Assembly: GCA_021018995.1 (NCBI GenBank)
Contig: JAJIZI010000021.1
Location: forward strand, 248,001 to 312,000
DNA: 64,000 bases
Direction of reading: 5' to 3'
DNA from: Chloranthus sessilifolius
Lineage: Eukaryota > Streptophyta > Magnoliopsida > Chloranthales > Chloranthaceae
Shown piece after piece: positions 8,956 through 52,842 of the stretch; the first letter of the stretch is position 1, and each line of letters starts with the position of its first letter. The notes beneath the pieces are model-generated. The model was given only the letters and a program-made list of their open reading frames with translations, was not told the DNA's origin and made no database searches. The translations under genes were made by a program, and so were the position numbers.

Positions 8956-10463
8956 CTTACTTTTTTATTATGATTTAAAATGCTAAACAAGACTTACAAT
9001 TTTATTCATTAAAACAAAATACAAAAAGAAAAAAATAATAAAATAAAACAAAAACAATCATATGTGATTAACATGGACCCAGACACCTAGGACCAACTCT
9101 TCTATTTAAACTGTTCATTTATAAGATATCCATTTAATGATCATAATTTTTGTATATGCGCATGAGTTAGTATTAGGTAAGCATCTCGAGTACTTAGGTG
9201 CTCAACCACTTTTTGAGATTTGTGTCACGTAAAAACACCATATGAAATTTTCAGTGCAAAATTTAGCATTAAATATGTTCTTATCATCGGATTTAACGCA
9301 ATCAAAAGCCACAAAGAATTAATGATATCATGCAAATCTAGATGATAGAGACCGTGTTTCATGCCAAATTCTTGACGATCTTCAATTGTTATGAATCTGG
9401 AGTTCATGTTCTGTGCCAAATTTTTATACCAAAAATATTTGTTTGTATAAAGTATTTGGCTTGTGTACTTTTATATGGTACTCATTTCACCTCTAAGCTA
9501 CACATGACATATAGGATAAAGGAGACATTACTTGCACTCAGAAATTTGGCCCTTGCATTATGTTTAAAACAAAGACCTACAAGTTTGGCGACCTCTGCTA
9601 TAAGAAAACTCCATCTAAACCGTTTGATTTGGAGCCCATCATTCAAAGATATAAAGTACAAAAGATTAGCACGAAATATAATCTTTATCATGTGATTAAA
9701 TATAGTCGAAAGCTATTATTTGAATCAACAGTTGAATCAAATAATAGCTTTTGACTATATTTAATCATATGATGAAGATTATATTTTGTGCTAATCTTTT
9801 GTACTTAACATCTTTAAATGATGGGCTCCAGATCAAATGGTTTAGATAGAGTTTTTATATAGCAGAGGTTGCCAAACTTGTACGTCTTTATTTTAAACAT
9901 GGCGCAAGGGTAAAATTTCCGAATGCAAGTAATGCTCCCACAAGATAATCGTTCAAGTGTCCATAACGTCATTAGTGGGGTGAAAAATAATCTCCAACAT
10001 TATCTGTTTAAACTTATGAAATTGCATCAACATCAATATCATTAAAAACCTAATATTAAATTGAGTCAACCAATGATGTCATTACCAGTTCACCACTTTA
10101 TGTTACAGACAGCCACCACATTCTGTGAATAAGAACTGTTGAAAAGGAGTGGACATCCACGGTCTAAAATGTAGTCAAATGATAAACAATTCACTGTGCT
10201 ATGATGTGTGAGGCAGTATCCAAACTTTGGTTGAAGTTTAGACCACAATTTTTTTTTTTTAATAGATGACAACATACGACATTACACACGATCCCAAAAA
10301 AAGTACTATCTTGGAATCAGGTGTTACGTCGCATATGATATGAAGTCTGAATGCATAGGTTCATTCATACATTAGAATCCATAAATCTTTTTCATTTTAT
10401 AAATTTATTATTATTTTTATGAAATTATAGAGCAACATATGCAAGCACGTGCATGTTTATTAG
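8930..10463 (+). mobile_element. Helitron 3' part, interrupted by an insertion at ~9,179-10,305
   Basis: Segments 8,930-9,178 and 10,305-10,463 align, in order, to 32,745-33,144 inside the short Helitron described there (shared phrases ACCTAGGACCA, CATGAGTT, GCATAGGTTCAT, TTATAAATTTATTATTATTT). The end GCACGTGCATGTTTATTAG followed by T is a Helitron-like 3' terminus with a short hairpin just before it. The ~1.1 kb between the two halves is absent from the other copy, so it inserted later; it contains the palindrome at 9,521-9,938. Confidence 0.65.
9521..9938. repeat. 418-bp near-perfect palindrome (foldback element)
   Basis: The left arm (from GGAGACATTACTTGC) is repeated as the reverse complement in the right arm (ending GCAAGTAATGCTCC), each arm about 205 bases, meeting at ~9,729 with practically no loop (GAATCAACAGTTGAATC). 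Only scattered mismatches separate the arms. A transcript would fold into one long hairpin. No coding content. Confidence 0.85.
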
Positions 10464-11094: not shown

Positions 11095-12086
11095 GGGGAA
11101 TTTATCAAATTGACCTTGTCAGATACACCTTTTTCTGTCAGGAATCCTATATTTTCACCTTTCACCTAACCGACCCACTCTAAACCAAGCCAGTTTCAGC
11201 TAGCATAAAAAGTTAGAAATACCCCTTCTTACACTTTTTTTCATTCTACATAGTTTAAAATTTTAAATATTTGCACTTTTTTATATTTACCCGATGTGGA
11301 ATAAAATCTATGCCGTCTAATTTGAAGGCCACAATATAAAATTGATGGTGTCAAAGATTGATATGAAAAAAAGGCGATATCGCCTCTTAAAAAAAAAAGA
11401 AAAATAAATTAAACAGTCAATGGTGACTCTCTAAATAGTCGCCATTGACTATAAAAAAATAAACAAATAAATAAAATAAAATAAATAAATAATTAATTTT
11501 TTAATAGTCAATAGCGATTGCTTACACAGTCGGTATCGACTGCTTAAAGAGGCGATGACAACTCTTTAAACAGTCACCATTGACTGTAAATTATTATTAT
11601 TATTATTATTTATTTATTTTTACAGTCGATGGCGACTGTCTAAACAGTTGGCATTGACTGTCTAAACAGTCGATGACAACTATTTAAAGAGTTGACATTG
11701 ACTGTTTAAAGAGTCGCCATCGCTTCTTAAAACAGTCGGTACTGACTGTCTATAGAGTTGACATCAACTGTTTAATTTAATTTTAATTTTTTTTAAGAGG
11801 CGATATTGCTTTTTTTTCGTGTCTATCTTTGGTACTATCAATTTTATATTGTGACCTTCAAATTAGACGGCATAGATCTTGTTTCACATTGTGTAAATAT
11901 AGAAAAGTGCAAATATTTAAAATTTTAAATTATGTAGAACGAAAAAAATGTAAGAAGGGGTAATTCTGACTTTTTGTGCTAGCTGGAATTCGCTCGACTT
12001 TGAGCTGGTTGGTTTGGTTAAAGGTGAAAATATAGGGTCTTTGGCAGAAAAGGTGTATCAGGCAGGGTCAAAATGATATATTTCCC
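11095..12086. mobile_element. Mutator-type foldback MITE, 992 bp, with 9-bp target duplication
   Basis: Flanked by the identical 9-mer AAATTAAAA at 11,086-11,094 and 12,087-12,095, the target-duplication size of Mutator-like elements. The long terminal inverted repeats begin GGGGAATTTATCA (left) and GGGAAATATATCA (right, reversed) and run roughly 300 bases, including AGGTGTATC, GTAAGAAGGGG, and ACGGCATAGAT / ATCTATGCCGT. The centre (11,400-11,780) is an imperfect ~22-bp satellite built on GTCGCCATTGACTGTTTAAA in both orientations. No transposase. Confidence 0.85.
11400..11780. repeat. Imperfect ~22-bp dyad satellite in the MITE core
   Basis: Alternating direct and inverted copies of CAGTC(G/A)(C/A)CATTGACTGT and GTCGATGGCGACTG, separated by TTTAAA or TCTAAA. 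It sits between the long inverted repeats of the Mutator-type MITE. Confidence 0.8.
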
Positions 12087-13992: not shown

Positions 13993-14805
13993 TGTTGAAT
14001 AAGGTTTAATCCCAACCACCAGTATCAATCAATTGAGGTGGAAAAATCAATCGATTGAGTTTGTGAAATCAACTACCGGTGTCAATCGATTGAGACTGGA
14101 AAGTCAATCGATTGACTGATGAGCGGATGCAGACCCGCAGGACTGACTGTTGACTGGTGTCAATCGATTGAGGTTGGGATGTCAATCGATTGACTGATAG
14201 ACTGACATAGATCCGAAAGTTTTGAATAAGTGGCTAATTTCGAGAAGTTCACTTTAGCCAAGGTTTCCTAAGTTATTAGGAGACTATTATTAGAAGTATT
14301 TTGAATACTTGCAACTCGTAGGAGATTTGTGAGTTACGTATCCAAAAAGGGCTTGGAGCCTATTGTGAGAAGGTTTTTTTCTCTAGGAAAAGAAAGAGCT
14401 TGGTGAAAGCTTCATGTGAGAAATCTGTGAAAATACTTTGAAAGAAAAAGTATTAAAGAATAGCTTGGGGATTGAAGATTCGATTGAAGCCGTTCTTGTA
14501 TTGGAATCGTGATTATATTCCGGTAGATCTCTTTTCTATTATTTGAAGAACCGCGTCCTTGGCTTAACAATGGATTTGTTGTTGAAGATCGTGTCAGATC
14601 TTGATTGAGTTTGCACTAGAGAGAAGAGTGTGTGTGCTGTAAACATTCAATAAAAATAGTGCATATACTCCCGTGGACGTAGCCCTCGATTGGGTGAACC
14701 ATGCAAATCTTTGTGTTGTGCGTGTGATTATTTTTTGCTTGAATCTTCTTATTTTTCCGCATTCATCGCGATAGGGAGTTCGTAGAGTGGATAGAATTCC
14801 TAACA
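13993..14805 (+). repeat. 5' LTR of the Copia element
   Basis: Starts TGTTGAATAAGG and ends CCTAACA. It contains several TCAATCGATTGA palindromes at 14,027-14,195, spaced by short purine-rich DNA. Confidence 0.95.
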
Positions 14806-17335
14806 AGTGGTATTATAGCCAGGTTTACGCTACAATGGCGATGAAGGTCTCAAATGTATGATTTGAGGTAGAGAAGTTTTCTGGGAAGAATAACTTCGCT
14901 TTGTGGCAAGTCAAGATCACAGATCTCATTGTCCAACAAGGCATTGATGATACCCTACTTGGAAAAGAGATGGGGAAGAAGACAGAGATGTCCGATGAAG
15001 AGTGTAACTCTATTGATAAGAGGGCCGTAAACACTATCCGATTGTGTTTGTCCGATGAAGTTCTGTACAACGTTCTTCACGAGAAGACTACCGGGGATCT
15101 GTGGAAGAAGATGGAATCTCTCTACATGACAAAGTTGTTGTCCAACCGACTCTTTATGAAGAAGCAACTCTACACCCTTCGTATGAAGACTGGTACGCGT
15201 ATTGATGACCATTTAAATTCGTTTAATAAAATAGTTAGTGAACTATTGAGCATTGAGGTGAAACTTGAAGAAGAAGATCTCGCACTTCTCTTGCTAACCT
15301 CATTGTCACCATCTTATGAGCACCTTGTTACCACATTAATTTATGGTAAAGATACTATTACCGTCAAAGAAGTGACTGCTGCACTTCTTTCTGACGAATT
15401 GAGAAAACAGCCCGAATCTAACTCCGAAGGGATCAGTCTCTTAAGCGAAAAGGGTCGAAACTATGATCGCAAAAGAGACAAATTCAGAGGGGATAATAAA
15501 TCAATGAGAGGAAATAGCAGGTCCAAATCTAAGGGTGACAGAAAGGATATTATCTGTTACTTCTGTAAGCAATATGGACATATTCGCAAATATTGCAAGC
15601 AGAGATTGAATAATAATAATGGTGATGAAGGGACTTCGCAACAGGCTAGTATTGCTAAGTCAGATTTCGGTGAAGACCTATTGTGTGCATTGTTAAGCTC
15701 CAGTCAGTTTGATGATAGATGGATCCTAGATTCAGGAGCATCGTATTACATGTGTCCATACAGGAATTGGTTTGACCAGTATAAGGTAGCCAATGGCGGG
15801 ACGATTTTGATGGGGAATGACAGTGTATGTGAAGCAGTGGGTATCGGTTCGATCAAAATCAAGATGTTTGATGGTTGTGTTCGCACTCTTACTGAGGTTA
15901 GGCATGTGTCTGATTTGAAGAAAAATCTGATCTCGTTGGAGGCATTGGATGAGATAGAATGTCGAGTCATTCTAGAATTCGGTAAACTAAAGGTTGTACG
16001 TGGTGCTATAACCGTGATGAAAGGTGAAAAGATGGGGAATCTGTATACTTTAGCAGGCAACACAATCAGCAGCAGTGGTGTTGCGGCTACAAAAGATTAC
16101 AAGGACCTTTTCAGACTTGTGGCACAAAAGGCTTGGTCACATGAGTGAACGTGGGCTGACAGAGCTCATAAAGAATAAGGCGATTTCTGAAATTCAAACT
16201 TGTAAACTGAATTTTTGTGAAGATTGTATCTTTAGAAAACAGAAGAAAGTCAGTTTCTCTACTGGAAAACACACTTCGAAGGGGATGATTGATTACATGC
16301 ATTCAGATGTATGGGGACCGGCTAAAGTCACTTCGGTAGGTGGAGCCAACTACTTTGTGTCATTTATAGATGACCACTCCATGAAAGTTTGGGTGTATCC
16401 GATTAAAAATAAATCAGATGTGTTTCAGAAATTTAGGCAGTGGCAGAGTATGGTTGAAAAGCAGACAGATAGAAAGGTGAAGATTCTCAGATCAGATAAT
16501 GGTGGTGAATACTTGTCATCAGAGTTCAAGGCTTACTATGAAAATCAAGGGATTGTTAGGCACTTAATAGTTCCTGGAAACCCTAAGCAAAATGGTGTAG
16601 CAGAGAGGATGAATAGAACACTATTGGAAAAAGCGCGGTGTATGTTGAACCATTCCGACTTGAGTCATGGGTTTTGGGCAGAGGCAGTGAACACGACATG
16701 TTACTTGGTCAACCGATCTCTTTCAGCAGCATTGAATTCGAAAACTGCAGATGAGGTTTGGTATGGAAGACACGGGAGCTACTCTCACTTGAGGGTGCTA
16801 GGATGTGCGGCTTATGCATTACTTCAGGGAAGTGAACGATCCAAGTTAGATCTAAAATCCAAAAAGTGTCTTGATTGGCTATGATGAAGGAGTCAAGGGT
16901 TATCGTTTATGGGATACACAATCTCACAAAGTGATAGTTGAAAGAGATGTTACTTTCAACGAAGATGAGTTTCCGATGAAAAAGGCGGAAGACAAACCTC
17001 AGTCATCTGGTGAACCTCAGGTACAAGTTGATGTTGAAAGACATAAGCAAGATGAGAAAGATAATGAAGATGGCACAGTTTCTCAAGACTTGCAGTCCCA
17101 GGTACCGGTTCAGACTACCTTGAGAAGATTAGAGAGGATGAAGAAACGTCCTGAAAAGTTTAAGGACATGGTTCCATTAACACTTGCACTTATAAAAGAG
17201 AATGCAGTAAACATGTTGATTAAACCGGCTATACAGAAGAAGTTTGGGCATTGCCTAAACTTGATTAACACTTGTCGAAGTCGTTGACGCCCGTTGGGGC
17301 GGTGACGTGGTTGGGGATGAAACCTTGGTGGAGAT

Positions 17336-18147
17336 TGTTGAATAAGGTTTAATCCCAACCACCGGTATCAATCGATTGAGGTGGAAAAATCAATCGATTG
17401 AGTTTGTGAAGTCAACTACCGGTGTCAATCGATTGAGATTGGAAAGTCAATCGATTGACTTATGAGCGGATGCAGACCCGTAGGACTGACTGTTGACCGG
17501 TGTCAATCGATTGAGGTTGGGATGCCAATCGATTGACTGATGGGCTGACATAGATCCGAAAGTTTTGAATAAATGGCTAATTTCGGGAAGTTCACTTTAG
17601 CCAAGGTTTCCTAAGTATTAGGAGACTATTATTGGAAGTGTTTTGAATACTTGCAACTCTTAGGAGATTTGTGAGTTACGTATCCAAAAAGTGCTTGGAG
17701 CCTATTGTGAGAAGGTTTTTTTCTCTAGGGAAAGAAAGAGCTTAGTGAAAGCTTCATGTGAGAAATCTGTGAGAATACTTTGAGAGAAAAAGTATTGAAG
17801 AATAGCTTGGGGATTGAAGATCCGATTGAAGCCGTTCTTTTGTCGGAATCGTGATTATATTCCGGTAGATCTCTTCTCTATTATTTGAAGGATCGCGTCC
17901 TTGGTTTAACAACGGATTTGTTGTTGAAGATCATGTTAGATCTTAATTGAGTTTGCACTAGAGAGAAGAGTGTGTGTGCTGTAAATATTCAATAAAAATA
18001 GTGCATATACTCCCGTGGACGTAGCCCTCGATTGGGTGAACCACGTAAATCTTTGTGTTGTGCGTGTGATTATTTTTTGCCTGAATCTTCTTATTTTTTC
18101 GCATTCATTGCGATAGGGAGTTCGTAGAGTGGGTAGCATTCCTAACA
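17336..18147 (+). repeat. 3' LTR of the Copia element
   Basis: Same start, end and TCAATCGATTGA array (17,369-17,540) as the 5' LTR; the two are about 94-95% alike by eye. Confidence 0.95.
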
Positions 18148-19436
18148 AGAAATGTAAATGAAACCCACATTAATAGAAAAGAGGTAAGAAACACAAAAAA
18201 AAAATAACAAACAAAACACAAAAAACCCAAAATCAGGGAATTATCAATCTTACCTGCAGAGAAGAAGCCCTTTCTGAGCTTTTAAGACCATCTCCTTCTC
18301 TTTACAACTGAGAAAACCACCATTCTCGATGGCGATTGAAGATCTGGTCCATTTTTTCCATCAGATCTTCAAAGTTCTATATGCCTGCGCCATCGTGTCC
18401 AATCTCAGCAATTACAACCCATCTTCATTAAAATCTTTCACACACCTGACCTGGAACACATGCAAGTTCATCCTACCTCCACTGCAAACCTGGTTCTCCT
18501 TCATATTCTGAACCAAATAGGGTATAGGAGACTGGTTGGAGTGGTTGTATGATGATGAATGACTGTTTCTGCTGCTTAAAAGCCTTTTATTTGCTATAAT
18601 AAAAATGGGTGGGATGGTGTAAAAGTAGCCGTTAATGTCCGTTGGAAATAATTCCTATAAAAAAATTGTGTTACGAGGCAGGAGGCTCGTAAGTCAAAAT
18701 TATTACCTGAAAAAAGAATAATTATTTATACGGACTCAATACGTTGACCCGAACGAGTGGATCCGTAATAAATGCTACCGTTGGAGCCAAAAAAGACATT
18801 GTCCGCGTAAAATATAGTGAATACGCCCAACCTAACGTACCTTAAGTGAACAACATATAAACTCCTGATTTATATGCGTTGTCAGCAATTGCACAAGACG
18901 GAAATGAAACGACGAGGGTAAATTTCGGTAAAAAAACCATAAACAAACGAAAAGTACGGAAGTGGAGGAAGTTAGGAGTACGGGAAGAATATGGGAAGGG
19001 AAAATTTGGCGAAAATATAAAAATTAGATATATCTTAAAATTAAAATACATATTTTCTCAAAAAAAAAAATACATATAGAAATATATTTAATTAAACATA
19101 TTTTCATTTAAAACTTGTTTTATATAATAAAAAAATGTATAAAATGCATTTTAAATGGAAAAAATAACACTTCAAAAGAAAAAATGTTGTTTCTTGTTTT
19201 TGGGGGTTGATAAATCCACCCTTTTTGACTTTTTACTTAACATTAGGAAGAAAATATCTATCAAAGCCATAATTTCTCATATGTTCTTGTCTTTGATTTT
19301 TAGTGTTATAAATGTCAAGGGTCTTGAAATAGGTAGGAATTGGGTCATACATAGCCTACCATGTGTATGTTATCTTTTGATAAGATCAAACCCCAAATCT
19401 TGTCAAAAGTGTATTAGACAAAAAATGATTCTATAA
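18148..19436. other. Unassigned DNA with one small open frame
   Basis: An open frame of 60 codons at 18,329-18,511 (plus; starts MAIEDLVHFFHQIFKVLYAC, ends WFSFIF) has a fair start context (CGATGG) and a hydrophobic C-terminus, but I recognise no family and it may be chance. The rest is AT-rich, with A-runs at 18,190, 19,060 and 19,120. No continuation of the CIPK kinase is seen here. Confidence 0.4.
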
Positions 19437-23299: not shown

Positions 23300-23336
<37 letters not shown>

Positions 23337-23697
23337 GGGAGCCAGTTAGGTCCTCCAATAGAGGACGGTGACCGTCCTCCAAGATATACATGGAGCTCCA
23401 TGTAGCACCCAAAATACTGTTTGGATGTCACGTAGAGCATAGGAGGACGATTTAGATTAATATTTAAAAATAAAAAATTGAAAAAAAACTTTTTAAACCC
23501 ACGAGTCAAAGTTTGACGGGTTTCATTGGCCCACATTTCACAGTTCAAAAAATACACGGTAGAGATGAGTTTTCAATTATTATTTTTTACAAAGATAATC
23601 TAAGCAATGCACCTGAGCTCCACATGGCATTAAAATAATATTTTGGGTGCTATGTGGAGCTCCACGTGGAAGCTTGGAGGATGATGACACCTTTTCC
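23337..23697. mobile_element. 361-bp MITE between (TA)n tracts
   Basis: Inverted ends: GGACGG...CCATGTAGCACCCAAAATA at the left and TATTTTGGGTGCTATGTGGAGCTCC at the right, plus ...TCCTCCAA / TTGGAGGA nearer the tips. TATATATATA lies immediately on both sides (23,326-23,336 and 23,698-23,708). No coding content. Confidence 0.75.
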
Positions 23698-24019
23698 ATA
23701 TATATATAGGCTCAGGGATATACGCACGGACGTAAAGATATCTCTACGCCAATTGATATGCGGCGCGACACGTAGCGTCCATTTTGTGAAGTGATGGGTG
23801 GTATGGGAACCACTTTACAAACTAGAGTTACGATTTTAAAATATTTTAATACCCTTCTAGCCGTCATTCTTGACTTTTTTAAATTTTCTTTATTTTCTCT
23901 TTCTTCTCCAATTTTTTTAATACCCTTCTAGCCGTCATTCTTGACTTTTTTAAAGTCTCTTTTTTTCTCTATTTTTTCAAAAAAGTGTCAGACTTACTTT
24001 TTCATACATATTTTGTACA

Positions 24020-24420
24020 AAAAATGTGGCGCCCGATAGCGAAGCGCAAATACTTCGGAAGCGAAGCGCCGACGCTCCTAAAATGAAGCGTCGGTGCTCC
24101 TAAACGAGGCGCCGACACTTTGTTTTGAGGCGCCGACGCTTCTAAAAAAATAAAATACAATAAAATACAAATTATCGAAGCGTCAGTGCTTTGTTTTGGG
24201 GCGCTGGCGCTTCATAAAAAATAAAAATAAAAATAAAAAAAATTTAAATTTTTTTTAATTTTTTTTAAAAAAAAATCGAGGTGTCGACACCCCTAAACGA
24301 AGTGCCGACGCTTCATTTTGGGGTGCTGACACTTCCATAAAAAAATAAAAATAAAAATTCGAAGCGCCGGTGACCCTAGGCGTCGACTCTTCTCTGCAGA
24401 GGTGCTAATGCTTTGCTACC
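24020..24420. repeat. CG-rich ~22-bp dyad satellite in MITE copy 1
   Basis: Imperfect units such as GAAGCGCCGACGCTCCTAAAA and GAGGCGCCGACACTTTGTTTT alternate in orientation; A/T-runs break the array at 24,150-24,280. The CG content is far above that of the surrounding DNA. Confidence 0.85.
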
Positions 24421-24594
24421 TATGACAGCCAGGATTTTTGCACCCAAAAACCCGTGCCATCAGGATCATAAACCTTGATGATTCCCAGAACAAACTATAG
24501 AGTGTCTGCTCGTCTAGCGGAAATCAGAGCAGATACAAACTAAAGTGGCAGATCGAGTCATCATATAAGGCTCTAAAAAGAAAGAAAGAAACAA

Positions 24595-24600
<6 letters not shown>

Positions 24601-24664
<64 letters not shown>
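24601..24664. repeat. (AT)n microsatellite inside the reverse LTR
   Basis: About 32 AT units. Confidence 0.95.
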
Positions 24665-24666
<2 letters not shown>

Positions 24667-25824
24667 CCAAAAGAATATACATCCTTAAAAAGGAACAAAA
24701 AAGAACCATTAGTGATGGATATCCATCACTTAAAACAATGGTTCCCAATAATGGTTCCTATAGAATATATAAAACTATAAGTAAACATCTACAGTAAATA
24801 AATACAGAAAAGTGGCCACCAAACACACAGATAATCCAAAATATATGTACAGATCCCAAAATGTAAAACTAAGTACCCAAACTATTGATAGAACACGTCA
24901 GCATGGTGTCAGTATCCTCCTCCTCAGCCTCAGCCTCGACCTCGGGTTGATTATCCGGGTCACTCTCTATGCCGGGATCCCTAGCCTCAGAACCTATGAT
25001 ATAAAAACAGGGTGAGCTAACCATCTAAACTCAATAGAAGAAATTCAAGTAAGTTGTATCTAAAATGTAAAACATGGTTTACAGAACATAGCTCAGAACA
25101 GATAGTCAAATCAGAGAATGCAGACAGAAGTGATCAGATGTCAGATGCAGAACTTAAAAGAAAGTGAATAGATGCAAAGTATCAGAATGCAGACTTTAAC
25201 TTCAGAGTTTTCAGATGTTATGCATATAGTATTTAGTGACTTAAATTCTATACTTAAAATAACTCTCGTGAATATAGCGCGTGGTAGTCAGATTGGTTGC
25301 CGATGGGTAACCCCGACCATCGTCGTTCAATGAATAATTTCTAATATTTGTATCGAGCCTCTTCAAATGAGAGTAACTTGTGCCAGGGGATTTACAAATC
25401 AGATACACAGATGTCCCGCCGTGTCGATCATGAGTATCTTGCCACGTCCGGGGGATTCGTCACATGAACTTTAAATCAATACATATACAGAACCTCAGAA
25501 ATCATATAGCAGAGTACAGATACAGAAATCAGATTGCAGAAATCATAGATAACAAAGCTTTCATTGATATACGTGACATGCTTTTAAAACAGAAGTCAGA
25601 ATACAGATGCTAGGAGACCATGCAATCAAAATCATATATAAGTTAAGTTGAACTTTTTCTACCTCAAATTAAGTCTTTCTAAGCAAATCCAAAGGTTTTT
25701 AAGGTGTCTTGGTTTTAACCTAGACCATACGTACAGTGTACTAAGTATCAAACGTGTCAGAACAGTAATTGGTATACTGTCCAACAGTGTTTTTCCCAGA
25801 AAACTAAAACAAGCAAAACAGGGG

Positions 25825-26490
25825 AATTCGATCGATCAAATTCCCTATTTGATCGATCGGATTCACTATCGGATTGATCAATCACTCCATTTGATCGATC
25901 GGACCTCTTTTTCTTCAAAGACAGGATAGAGGAATTTGATCGATCAACTCCCTATTTGATCGATCGGATTCATAGTTTGATCTATCAATTATCATGTTTG
26001 ATCGATCAGGACCCAAAATTTCACATATACAGAACAGAGGAGTTTGATCGATCAACTTGCTTGTTTGATCGATTGGATTCTTAATTTGATCGATCAATTT
26101 TTATAATTGATCGATCGGATTTCAAAGTCAAATTTTCAAAATTTTAGACCTCCTGTTCTATAAGGCATTTATATGATTCGATCGATCAAATCCCAAATTT
26201 GATCGATCAATTTCACACTTCGATCGATCAATTTCCCTAATTGATCGATCAGTTTACCACTTGATCGATCACTTTATATTTGATCGATCAGTTCCAAATT
26301 TGATCGATCAAATTCCAATCTGATCAATCAAATCCCAATTTGATCGATCGGATTTATTGGGCATTAACTTCTTAAAAATCACCCTCCTGTTCTATAAGGG
26401 TTTATATAGTTCGATTGATCAAATCCCAAATTTGATCAATCAGATTATAAATTTGATCGATCAAATACTCAATTTGATCGATCGAAAAAG
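25825..26490. repeat. Array of TTGATCGATCAA-type palindromes in the reverse LTR
   Basis: More than thirty GATCGATC cores, most in TTTGATCGATC(A/G) context, spaced by short AT-rich DNA. The position corresponds to the array at 540-1,010 in the first LTR, but the flanking bases of the palindrome differ (TTGATCGATCAA here, GGTGATCGATCACC there). Confidence 0.9.
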
Positions 26491-27523
26491 TTAATTTATG
26501 TCATAAATGCCTTTCGTTGATTTTAACCCCTATTTCAACCCTAAGTCTTTATGATCCTCCACGAATCATTCAAGCACACATTAACACATATTTATGACAT
26601 TTGAACTCTACAAATACCTAATAACTCACCTCTTTGATGGTTAATTCTTGGTTCACGGCATCCTCGGTTCAAGGTGGGTTTTGGATTCAGGATTCAAGAG
26701 TTCACGGATTCGAGCTCCCCGATGAACTAGAGGTGTATCCCCACGTCAACACAGGGACGTGTATTGCCTTCCCAATAGATTCGACGTACATACATCAATT
26801 CCTTCACGTTCTAAATCAGAGGGTCCGTAACCTAGGGTTTTTCGAGTCTCGGCTTTCTCAAAGAGTTCTCTCACACTGGTAATAGCTCGTAGGCAAAAGT
26901 TTTTTGATCAAAGAAGAGAGGTAGATGGTATTCCCTAACTTTCCTTCTCTTATAAGCGAACACATGGAAATATCTTTGATATTTCCATTCCTAATTCATT
27001 AGCTCTGATGTTGGGCGCATACACTACACTCACGTGTATAACATTCTACAATGAATCTCATTGCATCTCAGACTTGTGTCACAAATGACCTATGACTTTA
27101 CACGAGTACAAATTAATAATATCAATACTAATATTATTATTTTAAAATTTTCAGTTTAACTCGTTTTCCTTGCTAGGCATGCATACCAAAGTAGTTAAGT
27201 GCGTTTCAGAATTTTTGCGTTGTTACACTATCGAGCGCTCATATTTTTTTGAGTAAAATATATCTAAAAAAGTAAATCTGACACTTTGTTTGAAAAAAAA
27301 ATAGAAGAGAGAGAAAAGAAAAAGACTTCTAAAAAAGTCAAGAATGACGACTGAAAGGATATTTAACTTTTAAAATATTTTAAAAGTGTAATTCTAATTA
27401 GTAAAGTAGTTCCAATTTCACCCATCACTTCACAAAAGGGCGCTATCTGTCGCGCCCATATCAATTGGCGTAGAGATATCTCTACGCCCGAGCGCATTTT
27501 CCCTTTTTCCATATATATATATA

Positions 27524-28251
27524 CTCCAATTGATATGGGTGCGACATGTAGCGTCCTTTTTGTGAATTGATGGGTGGCATGGGAACTACTTTACTAACTA
27601 GAGTTACGCTTTTAAAATATTTTAAATTTATTTTAATAAAAAATGTGGTCTCCTATTAGCGAAGCTCTAGCACCTTGGCAGCGAAGTGCTGGCACCTCGA
27701 AAACGAGGCGCCGACACCTCGAAAACAAGGCATTGGCACGTCGTTTTAGGAGCGCCGACGCTTCATTTTAGGGGCTTCGACGCCTTGTTTTAGTAAGCGC
27801 CGGCACCTCATTTTAGGAAGCGTCGGCGCCTTGTTTTAGGAAGCACCGGCATTTCGATTTTGAGGAGCCAGTGCTTCGATATGGAGGTGCTAGCGCTTCG
27901 ATTTTTTTTTTATCGAAGCATCGGCGCCCCTAAAACGAAGCGTTGACACTTCGATATGGAGGTGTCGGCGCTTCAATAAGAATTTTTTTTTTTTTTTAGC
28001 GAAACATCGGCACCTCAGCGCCAGCGTGCCAACGCTTGCTGTCGAGGTACTAGCGCTTCGCACTGGGAAGCCACATTTTTTTATTAAAATATACCTAAAA
28101 AAGTATGTTTGACACTTTCTTAAAAAAATGAAAAGAAAGAAAGAGACTTTAAAAAAGTCAAGAATGACGAGTGGAATGGTATTAAAATAGTTTAAAAGCG
28201 TAACTCTAGTTAGCAAAGTAGTTCTCATGCCATGTCGCACCCATATCAATT

Positions 28252-28254
<3 letters not shown>
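27524..28254. mobile_element. Long-inverted-repeat MITE between (TA)n tracts (copy 2)
   Basis: Inverted ends CCAATTGATATGGGTGCGAC at 27,526 and GTCGCACCCATATCAATTGG at ~28,234. Arms continue as in copy 1 (GGCATG(G)GAACTACTTT, AACTCTAGTTA, CAAGAATGACG). The core is a long CG-rich satellite (GAAGCGTTGACACTTCG-type units, 27,655-28,075). The outermost GATATCTCTACG part of copies 1 and 3 is missing at both ends. (TA)n tracts abut both sides. Confidence 0.8.

Positions 28255-28314
<60 letters not shown>
28255..28314. repeat. (AT)n tract between MITE copies 2 and 3
   Basis: About 30 AT units, directly joined to the ends of both neighbouring elements. Confidence 0.95.
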
Positions 28315-28316
<2 letters not shown>

Positions 28317-29191
28317 AAAAAGAAAAATGTGCTCGGGCGAAGAGATATCTCTACGCCAATTGATATGGGCGCTACAGGCAGTGCCCTTTTGTGAAGTGAT
28401 GGGTGCCATTTGAACTACTTTACTAATTAGGGTTACACTTTTAAAATATTTTAAAAGTTAAATATCCTTTTAGCTACCATTCTTGACTTTTTTAGAAGTA
28501 TTTTTCTTTTCTCTCTATTCTCTTTTTTTTTCTAACAAAGAGTCATATATACTTTTTCAGATATATCTTACTCAAAAAAATATAAGTGCCGGGTAGCGAA
28601 GCGTTAGCACCTCTGTAGAGAAGCGCCAACGCCTCATTTTAGGGTCATCGGCGCTTCAAATTTTTATTTTTATTTTTTTATGAAAGCGCCAACACCCCAA
28701 AAGGAAGTGTCGGCACTTCGTTTAGGGGCACCGACACTTCGATTTTTTTAAAAAAGAAATTTTAAAATTTTAAAATTTATTTTTTTATTTTTATTTTTTA
28801 TGGAAGCGCCAGCGCCGCAAAATGAAGCGCTGATGCTTCGATAATTTGTATTTTATTTTATTTTTTTGAACACACCGGCGCCTCAAAATGAAGCGTCGAC
28901 ACCTCATTTAGGGGCATCGGCACCTCGTTTAGGGGCGCCGACGCTTCGTTTTAGGAGCGTCGGTGCTGCGCTTCTGAAGTGTTAGCGCTTTGCTACCGGG
29001 CGCCATATTTTTGTATAAAATATGTATGAAAAAGTAAGTCTGACACTTTCTTGAAAAAATAGAGAAAAAAAGGGACCTTAAAAAAGTAATGAATGATGGT
29101 TGGAAGGGCATTTAAGTATAACCCTAGTTAGTAAAGTGGCCATGCCACCCATGGTGTAGAGATATCTCTATGCCTCATACCCCCGACCTTC
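28315..29191. mobile_element. Long-inverted-repeat MITE between (TA)n tracts (copy 3)
   Basis: Inverted ends GAGATATCTCTACGCCAATT near 28,341 and TGTAGAGATATCTCTATGCC near 29,156. The core satellite (28,590-29,005) again has GAAGCGCCAACGCCTC / GGGGCGCCGACGCTTCG units. (TA)n tracts lie on both sides (28,255-28,314 and ~29,193-29,211). Confidence 0.8.
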
Positions 29192-29218
29192 TATATATAT
29201 ATATATATATAATCTTTA

Positions 29219-37624: not shown

Positions 37625-40600
37625 ATGGATAATAACCAGCAAAGGAAGCATAAATATGAATTGTCCATAGCTCAAAAAAAGAGAAAAAATGAAAGAATCT
37701 GATAAAGGAATCTCTTGATGGGAGTTTATCAAAAGGAGACTTTACTGTCGAAACGTAGAGAGTTATCTAAGAAGTGTAAGATTCAGAGGTTCTTGCAGTA
37801 ATGCAGTACAATCAAAAGAAACTCCTACTCAACCAATGCTCCTTAATACACAAGTCGAAGTAACCGCCCCATCAATTGCAAGTACATTTCTCCTTATCCT
37901 ATTATACACTCCATTATATAATTTTTAAAATAACGAATTTCATTGTGAGTATCCTAACAAAAATATTTCTCACTTAATCTTCGCATAGGTACATCAGCCT
38001 ATCGGAGAGAAAAGAAGAAAGGTGTTGCTAAGTTAGTTAGAGTCGTTGGTACTAGAAATTCACAAATCCGTCTGACAAACAAGGAGCGTGAAGTAAAAAT
38101 GATAGCTGATTGTATTTACTGGGGGGGGGGGGGGGGGCAAAACATATTAAAAATGAACCTCCAACGTTCTGTTGTTATAAAGGTGAAGTCTCTTTACATA
38201 CAGTTGACATACCAGATGATTTATATGCTTTATACACTTTTACATCAATGGAATGTAAGAAATTCCGTAAGTACATCCGTGCTTATAATAACATCTTCGC
38301 TTTCATTTCCATGGGAGTTAAGCTTGATAATGATATTGTCAATTCCTCTACTGGCATTTATACACTCAGAGTTCATAACCAGATTTACCATTCTCTTTCA
38401 TCATTAACCCCTCCAAACAATTGCGCAGAGTTCCTACAATTATATTTCTATGATACTAAACATGAGGTTGATAATAGGCTTCTTCACTTCCCAGAGCTAC
38501 ACCGGCAGACAGTTGAAAGATTGATTTCAATTCTAGAAAGTAATCCTTACACATTATTTCTATGAAGTTTATGTGGCTTGCAACCTCTACATAATTACTC
38601 AATTGTTATTAGAGAGAATTGTGGCCTAGATCAATGAGTGTTTAACCTACCTTCGACATCCCAAGTAGGAGTTGTTTTAACATAATGGTATAATGAAGAT
38701 GGGCGGTATAAAAGAGATATCATTGTGCACGGACAATCAGGTGAATCTTACAAAATCCATTCGAGTTACGGTTGTTATGATCCTCTACAATATCCTTTAA
38801 TTTTTTCCTACGGTCAGACTGGATGGCACAGGGGAATATTAAGGAACTCATGCAACCAACCCACCTCCAATGCTCAACACTGGGCAAATAATGCTACACC
38901 ACTCAATGAGGTTGCTTTCCAACAGATTCTTCAAGAAGAAGGTATTCAATAGAAAATTAATTTCAATAAATTTGATTTGAAATAAAATAATTATTACTTT
39001 ATTTTACGACCTTAATATCTTCCCAATTCCTATATTGCTCAGGTGACGTTTTTGAGAAAAATCGTAAACACGTCTCATGTCGTTAGTATTATGCATATAT
39101 GTTCCAGATAAGAAGTACTATTCGATGCAGTGCTCTGAATAGTGGCCGTTTATTCCAACAATATGTTGTTAGCATGTACGTCAAAATTGAAACTACAAGG
39201 TTAAGTTATTACTATAACAATCGGGCAGCTATACATGCGGATTTATACCAAGGAATCGTCGATAGTATTGCTGCAGGCGAACAACATGATTGTAAAGTTA
39301 GGAAAAGAATAGTCCTTCCAGCCTCTTTCATATGAGGACCTAGAGCTATGCGACAGAGATATTTGGATTCAATGGCTTTGGTACAAAGATATGGTAAGCC
39401 AAATATCTTTCTTACAGAGATAAAGGCTCTACTTCTTCCTAGAGGAGGCTCAAAATCAACCAGATATTACATCTTGAATTTTTCGAGCTAAAATTGATGA
39501 CTTGAAAAAACAACCCTTTGAGCATTGCATTTTTGGTTGAGTTGTTACACATGTTCATGTTATTGAATTCCAAAAAAGGGGTCTACCACATGCACACTTT
39601 CTACTTATATTACACTCGGAAGATAAATTACTAAATTCAGGTGATTACGACTAATTAATCTTTGCTGAAATTCCAGACAAGATGAAATATTCATTGTTGT
39701 TTGAACGCGTTGTCAGACATATGATGCACGAGCCTTGTGGTAATATGCGTCGTTCCTCTCCTTGTATGATTAACCAACAATGTCGTTTTCATTATCCTCG
39801 ATCATACTGCGATGTCACAACTCAAGCTAAGAACACTTACCCACTGTACCAAAGGAGGAATAACGGCCGAGAAGTTGAAGTTCGTAGTCATCTTCTAAAT
39901 AATCAATGGGTGGTTCCTTATAACTCATATTTGTTGCTATGTTATAATTGTCATATTAACGTCGAAATATGCTCAACCATTAAAACTATAAAATATCTCT
40001 ACAAGTACATCAATAAGGATCATGATCACATTTCCATGCATTTTGGATCAGATGGTATTGAATATATTATTGATGAGATACAACTTTTCCAAAATGCTAG
40101 CTGGGTGTCGCCTCCAGAGGCCATTTGGAGAATTTATGCATTCCCTTTAAGTAAAACATATCCAACAGTGCAAAATTTACAGTTACATTTGCCTAACCAT
40201 CATTTTGTTACATATTGGAAAAACCAAAAAGTTACACACGTGGTTGAAAATGATTATAATAAGTGTACGACACTCACAGAATACTTTACTGCAAATGCAA
40301 CTGACCCTGCTGCAAAGAAGTATGTATACCGTGAATTTCCAGAACATGACATTTGGAATTCACTTGACCGGTTTTGGAGTAAACGAAAACATTTAAGAGC
40401 TATTGACCGTATTGCTACAGCTAATCAAAGAGGAGAGCGATATTATCTACGTATCTTAACCACGTGCTTGGATCGACATCATTTGAAGATTTACTCACAA
40501 TTAATGGGAAAGTAGCTGGATCATTTCGAGAAGCCGCCTTGTCCTACGGATTATTAAAAGATGATGCGAACATCCTAAATTGCTTACAAGAAGCCAACAC

Positions 40601-42205
40601 ATTAGCAATGCCATCAACATTGCGAAGATTATTTGCTATAATCCTTATTTACTGTGAATCAGCTGATGTAAAAGTGTTATGGGAATCTATGTCCCCCCAA
40701 ATGGGGGAAGACTTTCATGATATTAGTCAAAATAATGCTTCAGTTCTTGATGCTTATGTTCTAAATGACGTAGGAACTATGCTTAAAGAAATGGAAAAAT
40801 CTTTGTCAGATTTTGCTCTTCCACGTGTTCAACTAGTTGAAACTATTAAAGGGAACCAGCCGGCTGCAACTTGTCCTAGAAGAGATATCAACCAATTAAA
40901 CCCTACTCAACTATATGCGTTGGATACAATAATGAGATGTATAGACAATTGTCAGCCTAAATTCTTCTTCACCGATGTCCCAGGTGGAATAGGCAAAACA
41001 TTTCTTTATAGAATTTTACTTGCTAAAGTGCGATCAACTGGAAATATCGCTATTGCTACAACAATGTCTGGTGTTGCTGCATCAATTCTTCCTGGTGGAA
41101 GAACTTCTCATTCACCATTTAAAATATCCATTGACATTAGCTTAACAAGCTTATGTGGATTAAGTAAGTAAAGTAGTGATGCTGAACTTATAAAAGAGCT
41201 ACCATTATCGTATGGGATGAGGCACCGATGTCGAAAAGATATGCATTTGAGGTCCTCAATCGTATTCTTCAAAATATAATGGACAAAAATATAATTTTCG
41301 GTGGTAAAATTGTTATCCTTGGTGGAAATTTTAAGCAAGTACTCCCTGTTGTCCCTCAAGCAACTAGAGCAGAAACAATAGATGCAAGTCTAATTAATCC
41401 ATACCTTTGGAATGCTGTGGAAAAGTTGAAATTAAATCATAATATACATGCAGAAGGTGATGCTGAGTACAGTCGTTATTTACTCCAAATAGGAGATGAC
41501 ATCGAAGAATCTTTTATGGAAAACTTAATAAAAATACCATCAACTATGATCATTACATATAATGAACACACCAACTGTTTGGAGAAGCTAATTGATACTA
41601 TCTTCCCATCTTTGGAACAACAGATACGCAATATAAATTATTTAGCCGACGGAGCTATTTTGAGCATGAAGAATGAATACATTGATCATGTCAATCATAT
41701 CATCATTTCCAACATTACAAGCGAAGAGATTGTCTACTATAGTTTTGATATTACAGTTGACAATGTTGACACCTCCCTACCGCAAGAATTCTTGAAATCT
41801 GATTCCCCAAATAGTTTGCCGCCTCATAAGTTGATATTAAAACAAAATTCCCATGTTTTATTATTGCGAAATATTAACCCTAAAAGCGGGCTTTGTAATT
41901 TCAGCGTAATATGCGTTGAAATTGCATCTGGTCAACATAAAGGAAAAGAAGTACTCCTACCAAGAATACCTTTATGTCCAGCAGAAAATGAAGGTTATCC
42001 ATTCCAATTTAAAAGGAAGCAATTTCCGATACGCCTTTCATACGCAATGACTATTAACAAAGCACAAAGACAAACAATCAAGTAAGTTAGAGTTTATCTA
42101 CCTGAACCCGTATTCTCGCATAGACAACTCTATGTCGCATTATCAAGAGGCGTTTTAAGGGAAGGTACTAAAATATTAATGAAACCAACACCTAAGAAAA
42201 TCTAG
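37625..42205 (+). pseudogene. Helitron replicase-helicase (RepHel), decayed
   Basis: The rolling-circle transposase of Helitrons: an HUH endonuclease fused to a PIF1-type helicase. It begins near ATGGATAATAACCAGC (37,625; lysine-rich start). The N-terminal Helitron-like region is at 38,150-39,340. The HUH motif reads RGLPHAHFLL at ~39,583. QCRFHYPR and YLYKYINKDHDH follow at 39,780-40,030. The helicase carries Walker A (GGIGKTFLY, ~40,985), Walker B (WDEAPM, ~41,215), GGNFKQVLPV (~41,322), SYAMTINKAQ (~42,037) and LYVALSRG (~42,130). The reading is spread over all three frames with at least half a dozen stops or shifts, so it is inactive. An RPA70-like gene follows in the same direction, as in many plant Helitrons. 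The outer ends are not certain: the 5' end may be 29,219, and no 3' CTAG end was found. Confidence 0.9.
38121..38137 (+). repeat. G17 homopolymer inside the RepHel remnant
   Basis: Seventeen G in a row in AT-rich coding-derived DNA. The reading of the protein changes frame at this run. Confidence 0.9.
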
Positions 42206-51985: not shown

Positions 51986-52359
51986 AGATGAAGCATGGAG
52001 TATAGGAGTTGGTATTAGGTGCCTGGCCGTGCACCTGGGATAGGCAGTACACAGGTCTATCTTTCATGGAACAATAGTCAAACTTAAGAAATTCACGGAT
52101 ATTATAAGGTTAATGGGGCCTTACCTTAGTTAGGTCCATAGTGACAAATTTGGCCAAAATAGGGGTGGGACGAAACTTTCGGTGAAATTTTAGTGATTTC
52201 GCAAAATTTTGTTAATTTTGTAAAATATTAATAATTTTTTTCTTAAAAAAAAATTGGCCATTTTTTCCGAGGGTAAAAGTAGCCATGTAACAAGGAATAT
52301 GTAACTTACCCATTCGGCCATTCCCACATTATTTTGCTGCCACGTGGTGCACTAAATCA

Positions 52360-52615
52360 CATGATTGGGTGCCACGTAAAGGAACGGCTTGATGAGTATA
52401 TTTATTATAAGAAATATTAAAATAAGTAATATAAAATAATACAATCAATAAAGTCAATTGCACAGAAAATGAACAGTAGAATTATTTAGTTTTACAGTTA
52501 TTTTCTAAACGGTTGACACCATTGATGGTACAATTTCATATATTTTTAATCACCATTTTTCTATAATAATTATGATCATCGAGTTGCTCCTTTACGTGAC
52601 ACCTGATTATGCGAT
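52360..52615. mobile_element. ~250-bp inverted-repeat element (MITE)
   Basis: CATGATTGGGTGCCACGTAAAGGAACGGC at the left and GAGTTGCTCCTTTACGTGACACCTGATTATG at the right are inverted relatives; AT-rich centre. It lies between the PPR pseudogene and the last TPK exon. Confidence 0.6.
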
Positions 52616-52842
52616 TGGGTGCTATGTGACAACAAACTAATGTGACACTCCATTTCCAATTTTGTCCAAATAACTAAGCATCATTTGAAATCATAAAGTC
52701 ATAAAAGAGAATGCTCATCAAAGTGTTTAAACCATTTAATCTGTATAGACCGTAAGAAGTGCTTGAATTCTATGGTATTGATTCTCACATGAATTTACAT
52801 TCTCCGTAAATAAGACACAAAAGTTTACCTTTTCTTCGCCCA

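Follow-up and report, generated by a model that had tools for sequence, protein, structure and literature searches.

How do four foldback elements come to stand end to end in a plant genome with nothing but TA repeats between them? This question is raised by a 64,000-nucleotide stretch of contig JAJIZI010000021.1 of Chloranthus sessilifolius (hereafter the window), in which four inverted-repeat elements, E1 to E4, adjoin one another over positions 23337-29191 (23325-29211 with the outer TA tracts). We consider it very probable that this array was formed by repeated, non-nested insertion of non-autonomous and probably Mutator-derived miniature inverted-repeat transposable elements (MITEs) of two families into a TA microsatellite. 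In the features tested its anatomy conforms to that of a class of arrays in the literature, and the locus is a clear new example of an architecture that is already known.

Array anatomy and TA joints

All five joints of the array are pure (TA)n, measuring 12, 11, 13, 60 and 20 bp from left to right without any other sequence in them, and each of the eight element ends (as delimited here) touches a tract. The left border is a (TA)6 at 23325-23336, into which a (CT)13 tract at 23300-23325 runs straight, so that a compound microsatellite (23300-23336) precedes E1. E1 itself spans 361 bp (23337-23697, forward strand) and is separated by 11 bp of TA (23698-23708) from E2, which is split in two by an insert. 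The left part of E2 (23709-24420, forward strand, 712 bp) is made up of the left arm and of GC-rich internal repeats; the right part (27228-27510, forward strand, 283 bp) comprises the right arm and contains a perfect 22-bp palindrome, GGCGTAGAGATATCTCTACGCC. By arithmetic, removal of the insert and of one copy of a 5-bp repeat gives E2 an uninterrupted length of 990 bp. A 13-bp tract (27511-27523) leads to E3 (27524-28254, forward strand, 731 bp), of which both arms lack the outer palindrome part, and a 60-bp tract (28255-28314) leads to E4 (28315-29191, 877 bp), which lies on the reverse strand in opposite orientation to E2. The array is closed by 20 bp of TA (29192-29211). A first-pass annotation made from the letters alone had described four inverted-repeat elements side by side (361, about 990 before interruption, 731 and 877 bp) with a (TA)n tract touching both element ends at every junction; the lengths and the joints are both confirmed. 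Comparison of the window with itself by BLAST further shows that none of the four elements interrupts another, the sole interruption being the insert in E2, which resembles a long terminal repeat (LTR).

The window is TA-rich, since it contains 16 TA tracts of at least 10 bp where a first-order model based on dinucleotide content expects 0.37 (24 tracts reach at least 8 bp). It might therefore be argued that unrelated MITEs simply became neighbours in a TA-rich stretch by chance, and 10 of the 16 tracts indeed lie outside 23320-29215, with one more inside the insert. Against this, the five joints consist of TA only, homology between elements starts at the tract edges, and the other inverted repeats are found away from TA: in the filtered list of inverted repeats outside E1 to E4, every outer end is at least 332 bp from any TA tract of at least 8 bp, and the three longest outside foldbacks, taken as controls (9521-9938, 11095-12086 and 52325-52644), have none of their six ends at TA. 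The proportion of positions touching a tract of at least 8 bp is 0.00225, and its fifth power gives approximately 6e-14 for five joints, a figure that is overstated because the tracts were used in setting the element ends. On the grounds of the pure joints, the homology at their edges and the position of the other inverted repeats we reject chance placement, the probability of which we regard as close to nil.

Element families, their ends and the insert

Inverted arms are found in all four elements. On the opposite strand, E4 is 89% identical to the right part of E2 (276 columns) and 81% identical to its left part (533 columns), and E3 resembles both of them in its arms as well as in its core. 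At E up to 1e-3, E1 has no match but itself, its own arms being 74% identical over 112 columns. These BLAST matches bear out the earlier claim that three of the four elements belong to one family and that the fourth has different arms: judged by sequence, E2, E3 and E4 form one family and E1 represents a separate one. Folding of the single strand, tested for E1, E3 and E4, is in each case far more stable than that of shuffled sequences (z of -9.2 with 100 shuffles for E1, -26.8 with 20 for E3 and -10.8 with 20 for E4). The cores of E2 to E4 consist of diverged repeat units of 21-23 bp, many of which follow a motif resembling GCGCCGACGCTTC; partial self-complementarity of this motif is visible by eye. 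All 26 frames of at least 110 codons in the window were compared with Pfam, a threshold at which exons in shorter frames could escape; within the elements there is a single such frame, at 27890-28414, which crosses from E3 into E4 and at E up to 0.01 matches nothing, and no transposase was found there. From their sequence E1 to E4 are classed as non-autonomous MITEs.

The element ends deserve separate attention, as they were partly set with the help of the TA tracts. Two tips quoted in the first-pass annotation, GAGATATCTCTACGCCAATT and CCAATTGATATGGG, are only partly right: their core is present in the arms of E2 and E4, but these arms run 23-28 bp farther out, and E3 lacks the outer part on both sides. 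Outside the core, which is palindromic with ATAT at its centre (perfectly so over 22 bp in the right arm of E2), the arms continue up to the TA for 26 bp at the left (E2L) and 28 bp at the right of E2 (E2R), and for 27 bp at the left (E4L) and 23 bp at the right of E4 (E4R). E2R and E4L both start with GGAAAAAG and are homologous from the first base after the TA tract, which is the best non-circular sign that the tract is the border of the element. E2L and E4R align only loosely with these two in the outermost part. For the arms of E3 (E3L and E3R) homology starts at approximately CCAATTG, 1-2 bp from the TA. Support for the border that is independent of TA is thus available for E2R, E4L, E3L and E3R, and is weak or lacking for the other four ends.

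When as many as 3 mismatches are allowed, TAGAGATATCTCTACGCC occurs 8 times in the window against an expectation of 0.01; all of these occurrences belong to E2 and E4, each of whose four ends has one on either strand. In E3 the palindrome is absent from both sides, and TA stands at the place where the palindrome lies in E2 and E4. This symmetric shortening at an ATAT-centred palindrome is the detail of the array that stands out. Searches with the letters of the palindrome (in three forms, the search being limited to these letters) did not find it in the literature covered, and the arm motif has 0 exact matches in viral contigs, a scope that tells little about a plant family.

The palindrome brings forward the explanation that the elements themselves produce the TA tracts, through expansion of terminal or subterminal ATAT by slippage or gap repair, and do not target them. 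The variable length of the joints (11-60 bp), the ATAT centre and the TA that replaces the palindrome in E3 are all consistent with this, as is the report that for the maize element TAFTA the empty sites had 6-8 bp of TA and that the tracts lengthened once the element was in place (PMC5907723). Nonetheless, bare TA tracts are common in the window, so targets do exist, and some empty sites in rice (PMC5907723) and Medicago (PMC4486113) are TA tracts. For the rice element rSaTar2, also called Micron and assigned to Mutator by its terminal inverted repeats (TIRs), 51 sites are given for japonica chromosome 1, of which 20 correspond to empty TA tracts in indica and 9 are common to both subspecies (PMC5907723); the empty sites of MuTAnT in Medicago truncatula hold nine TA repeats on average (PMC4486113). 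We consider it unlikely, though deserving of some weight, that the tracts are products instead of targets, and the two views are compatible. A bolder variant, which we hold to be a long shot, is that the palindrome may serve as a second cleavage or hairpin-repair site, its ATAT core seeding the microsatellite, so that an element would make the landing pad for the next.

The reversed orientation of E4 relative to E2 suggests yet another origin, in which E2, E3 and E4 would form one large inverted duplication centred within E3, with E4 as the mirror of E2; true landings would then be limited to E1 and a single ancestral element. Over 15 arm pairs the identities range from 0.81 to 0.96, and same-side arms are closer (0.898 for E2R/E4L, 0.891 for E2L/E4R) than cross-side arms (0.845 and 0.838), as a mirror would have it. 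The same pattern is, however, expected just as much of any two copies of a family whose left and right arms are distinct, and a pair of copies has an even chance of lying in opposite orientations. The distances by the Kimura two-parameter model (K80) are 0.04 for E3L/E3R, 0.11 for E2R/E4L, 0.12 for E2L/E4R, 0.13 for E2L/E2R and 0.22 for E4L/E4R. Mismatches in E3L/E3R (3/72) and E2R/E4L (28/275) do not differ significantly (Fisher p 0.16), which agrees with a mirror, and because of this the arm distances alone are not decisive. What speaks against a mirror is that E1 has no counterpart to the right of E4 and that E3 is distinct in length, core and tips. Overall, we judge the inverted duplication improbable. 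As an account of the whole run, a segmental duplication of a single element (raised in the first-pass annotation as a reading that would overturn its own) is rejected, as E1 has no relation to the other three and E3 stands apart in its core and its ends; for the E2/E4 pair it is disfavoured and carries little weight.

The insert in E2 (24421-27227, forward strand) is 2807 bp long, begins with TATGACAGCC and ends with TGTTACA. It is flanked by CTACC and CTATC, a repeat that matches at 4 of 5 positions. A second copy lies in the window in reverse orientation at 2196-1089 (66.8% identity over 1160 BLAST columns); by eye the homology can be followed beyond these columns, up to about 2362, and the copy begins there with TGTAACAGCC on the reverse strand. 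Given the LTR-like ends and a diverged second copy that begins with TGTAACAGCC, the insert is probably a solo LTR of which the second base has changed. The same ends and second copy, together with the flanking repeat, led us to reject the possibility that the insert is part of E2. It is younger than E2, and this is the only event in the array that can be ordered. Repeats of TTGATCGATC are numerous in the insert, which also holds 67 bp of bare TA (24599-24665); no such tract is listed for the copy at about 2362-1089. No frame of at least 110 codons lies within the insert.

Growth of the array and published counterparts

According to the explanation that we favour, a transposase from elsewhere would have placed each element into (TA)n. 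Every insertion would have left TA on both sides as a target for the next element, and in this way the array could have grown without nesting. Slippage may later have lengthened or shortened the tracts, and a retrotransposon would have landed in E2 once this element was in place and then shrunk to a solo LTR.

Arrays of this kind have been described for SaTar, a group of non-autonomous Mu-like TIR elements in guayule, rice, sorghum and citrus with microsatellite flanks that are often (TA)n (PMC5907723). These arrays are linear and non-nested and join unrelated elements (approximately 400-1700 bp in guayule, 380-1900 bp in rice) through microsatellites; in rice, a Ty3 element interrupts one of the array members (PMC5907723). 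The Chloranthus array shares the TIR elements, the non-nested microsatellite-joined order and the single member interrupted by a retroelement, a likeness drawn from anatomy. It differs in that several SaTar families are known to have an autonomous partner and a form with a 9-10 bp duplication, neither of which was seen for E1 to E4.

Similar tendencies are reported for pineapple Ac-mMITE, where 46.1% of full-length copies occur in non-nested clusters with TA joints, sometimes with a CT/GA tract on one side (PMC8449440). Ac-mMITE-1 and -2 resemble the present elements in their TA flanks, in clusters formed by adjacent insertion and in the one-sided CT/GA tract beside the TA (here at 23300-23336); they differ in size (210-570 bp against 361-990 bp here) and in being recently amplified to 53,014 elements (PMC8449440); the K80 distances between arms are 0.04-0.22 here. 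MuTAnT has modular foldback TIRs with variable distal ends and TA microsatellite flanks, all of which are recognizable in the present elements, but 90% of its copies are 200-300 bp long and an autonomous mudrA-like partner is known (PMC4486113). Micron is described as a MITE superfamily that is extensive in Poaceae and Rosaceae and absent from all but a few of the other species surveyed (PMC12550479). Compared by description only, rice Micron is likewise a MITE in (TA)n but measures approximately 380 bp (PMC5907723, PMC12550479). The TA-joined architecture has been published before for SaTar and Ac-mMITE, with MuTAnT and Micron as related elements.

The SaTar study also offers a different route of entry, namely recombination between TA tracts, for instance by excised circles with TA filler, instead of direct insertion by a transposase. 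It was proposed there, with circular intermediates, because many flanks misfit a 10-bp duplication and microsatellites other than TA are also used (PMC5907723), and the plain TA in all present joints would offer the required homology. Nonetheless, its authors call the idea speculative (PMC5907723) and its products look like those of serial insertion; for the Chloranthus array we think this route rather unlikely.

Several observations weigh against serial insertion by a Mutator transposase. No such transposase occurs among the 26 frames of at least 110 codons, so its source is assumed, and here both families are known from a single array; TA targeting by the E2/E3/E4 family is accordingly suggested by this array plus analogy. 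A 9-10 bp duplication, or more broadly one of the 8-11 bp typical of Mutator-like MITEs, would be unreadable inside TA repeats, and the SaTar authors hold that many flanks misfit simple cut-and-paste (PMC5907723). The ends of E3 are unlike those of E2 and E4. Moreover, the alignment between the two arms of E1 sets in only 38 bases from the left end and 16 from the right; its outermost bases do not match, and the arms consequently fail to confirm the outer tips of this element. The first-pass annotation had compared the array to rice Micron, with elements that land in TA microsatellites or create them when they insert, and with repeated landing at one site. This fits the anatomy, the published arrays (PMC5907723, PMC8449440) and the related elements (PMC4486113), but the order in which the four elements arrived is unreadable because none interrupts another. 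The locus is one more clear array in support of end-to-end stacking through TA microsatellites by some Mutator-type MITEs, and the symmetric loss of the outer arms in E3 makes it possible to test concretely whether TA tracts are only used by such elements or also made by them.

Other inverted repeats and coding content of the window

Two of the foldbacks that served as controls have features of their own. The one at 11095-12086 is approximately 1 kb long and 74% self-complementary, with tips GGGGAA/TTTCCC and a perfect 9-bp flanking duplication, AAATTAAAA, at a non-TA site; its sequence suggests a Mutator-like MITE inserted outside TA in the same window. The foldback at 9521-9938 (418 bp, 88% self-complementary) has the left tip GGAGACATTACTTGCA and no clear target duplication. 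Neither there nor at 52325-52644 is an exact repeat of more than 5 bp common to both ends.

Pfam matches above the cut-off comprise copia-type gag, integrase and reverse transcriptase, an RNase H-like domain (RVT_3), PPR, PIF1 and an ion channel (K2P-like). The copia, PPR and K2P-like frames, together with the kinds of transposon present, suggest a plant nuclear genome from the sequence itself. At 13993-18149 lies a copia-type LTR retrotransposon, with gag and integrase domains between LTRs of approximately 815 bp that are 95% identical. PIF1-like helicase domains are found at 39655-42082 in the adjoining frames 40425-41168 and 41186-42082, and could belong to a decayed Helitron or to a helicase gene.

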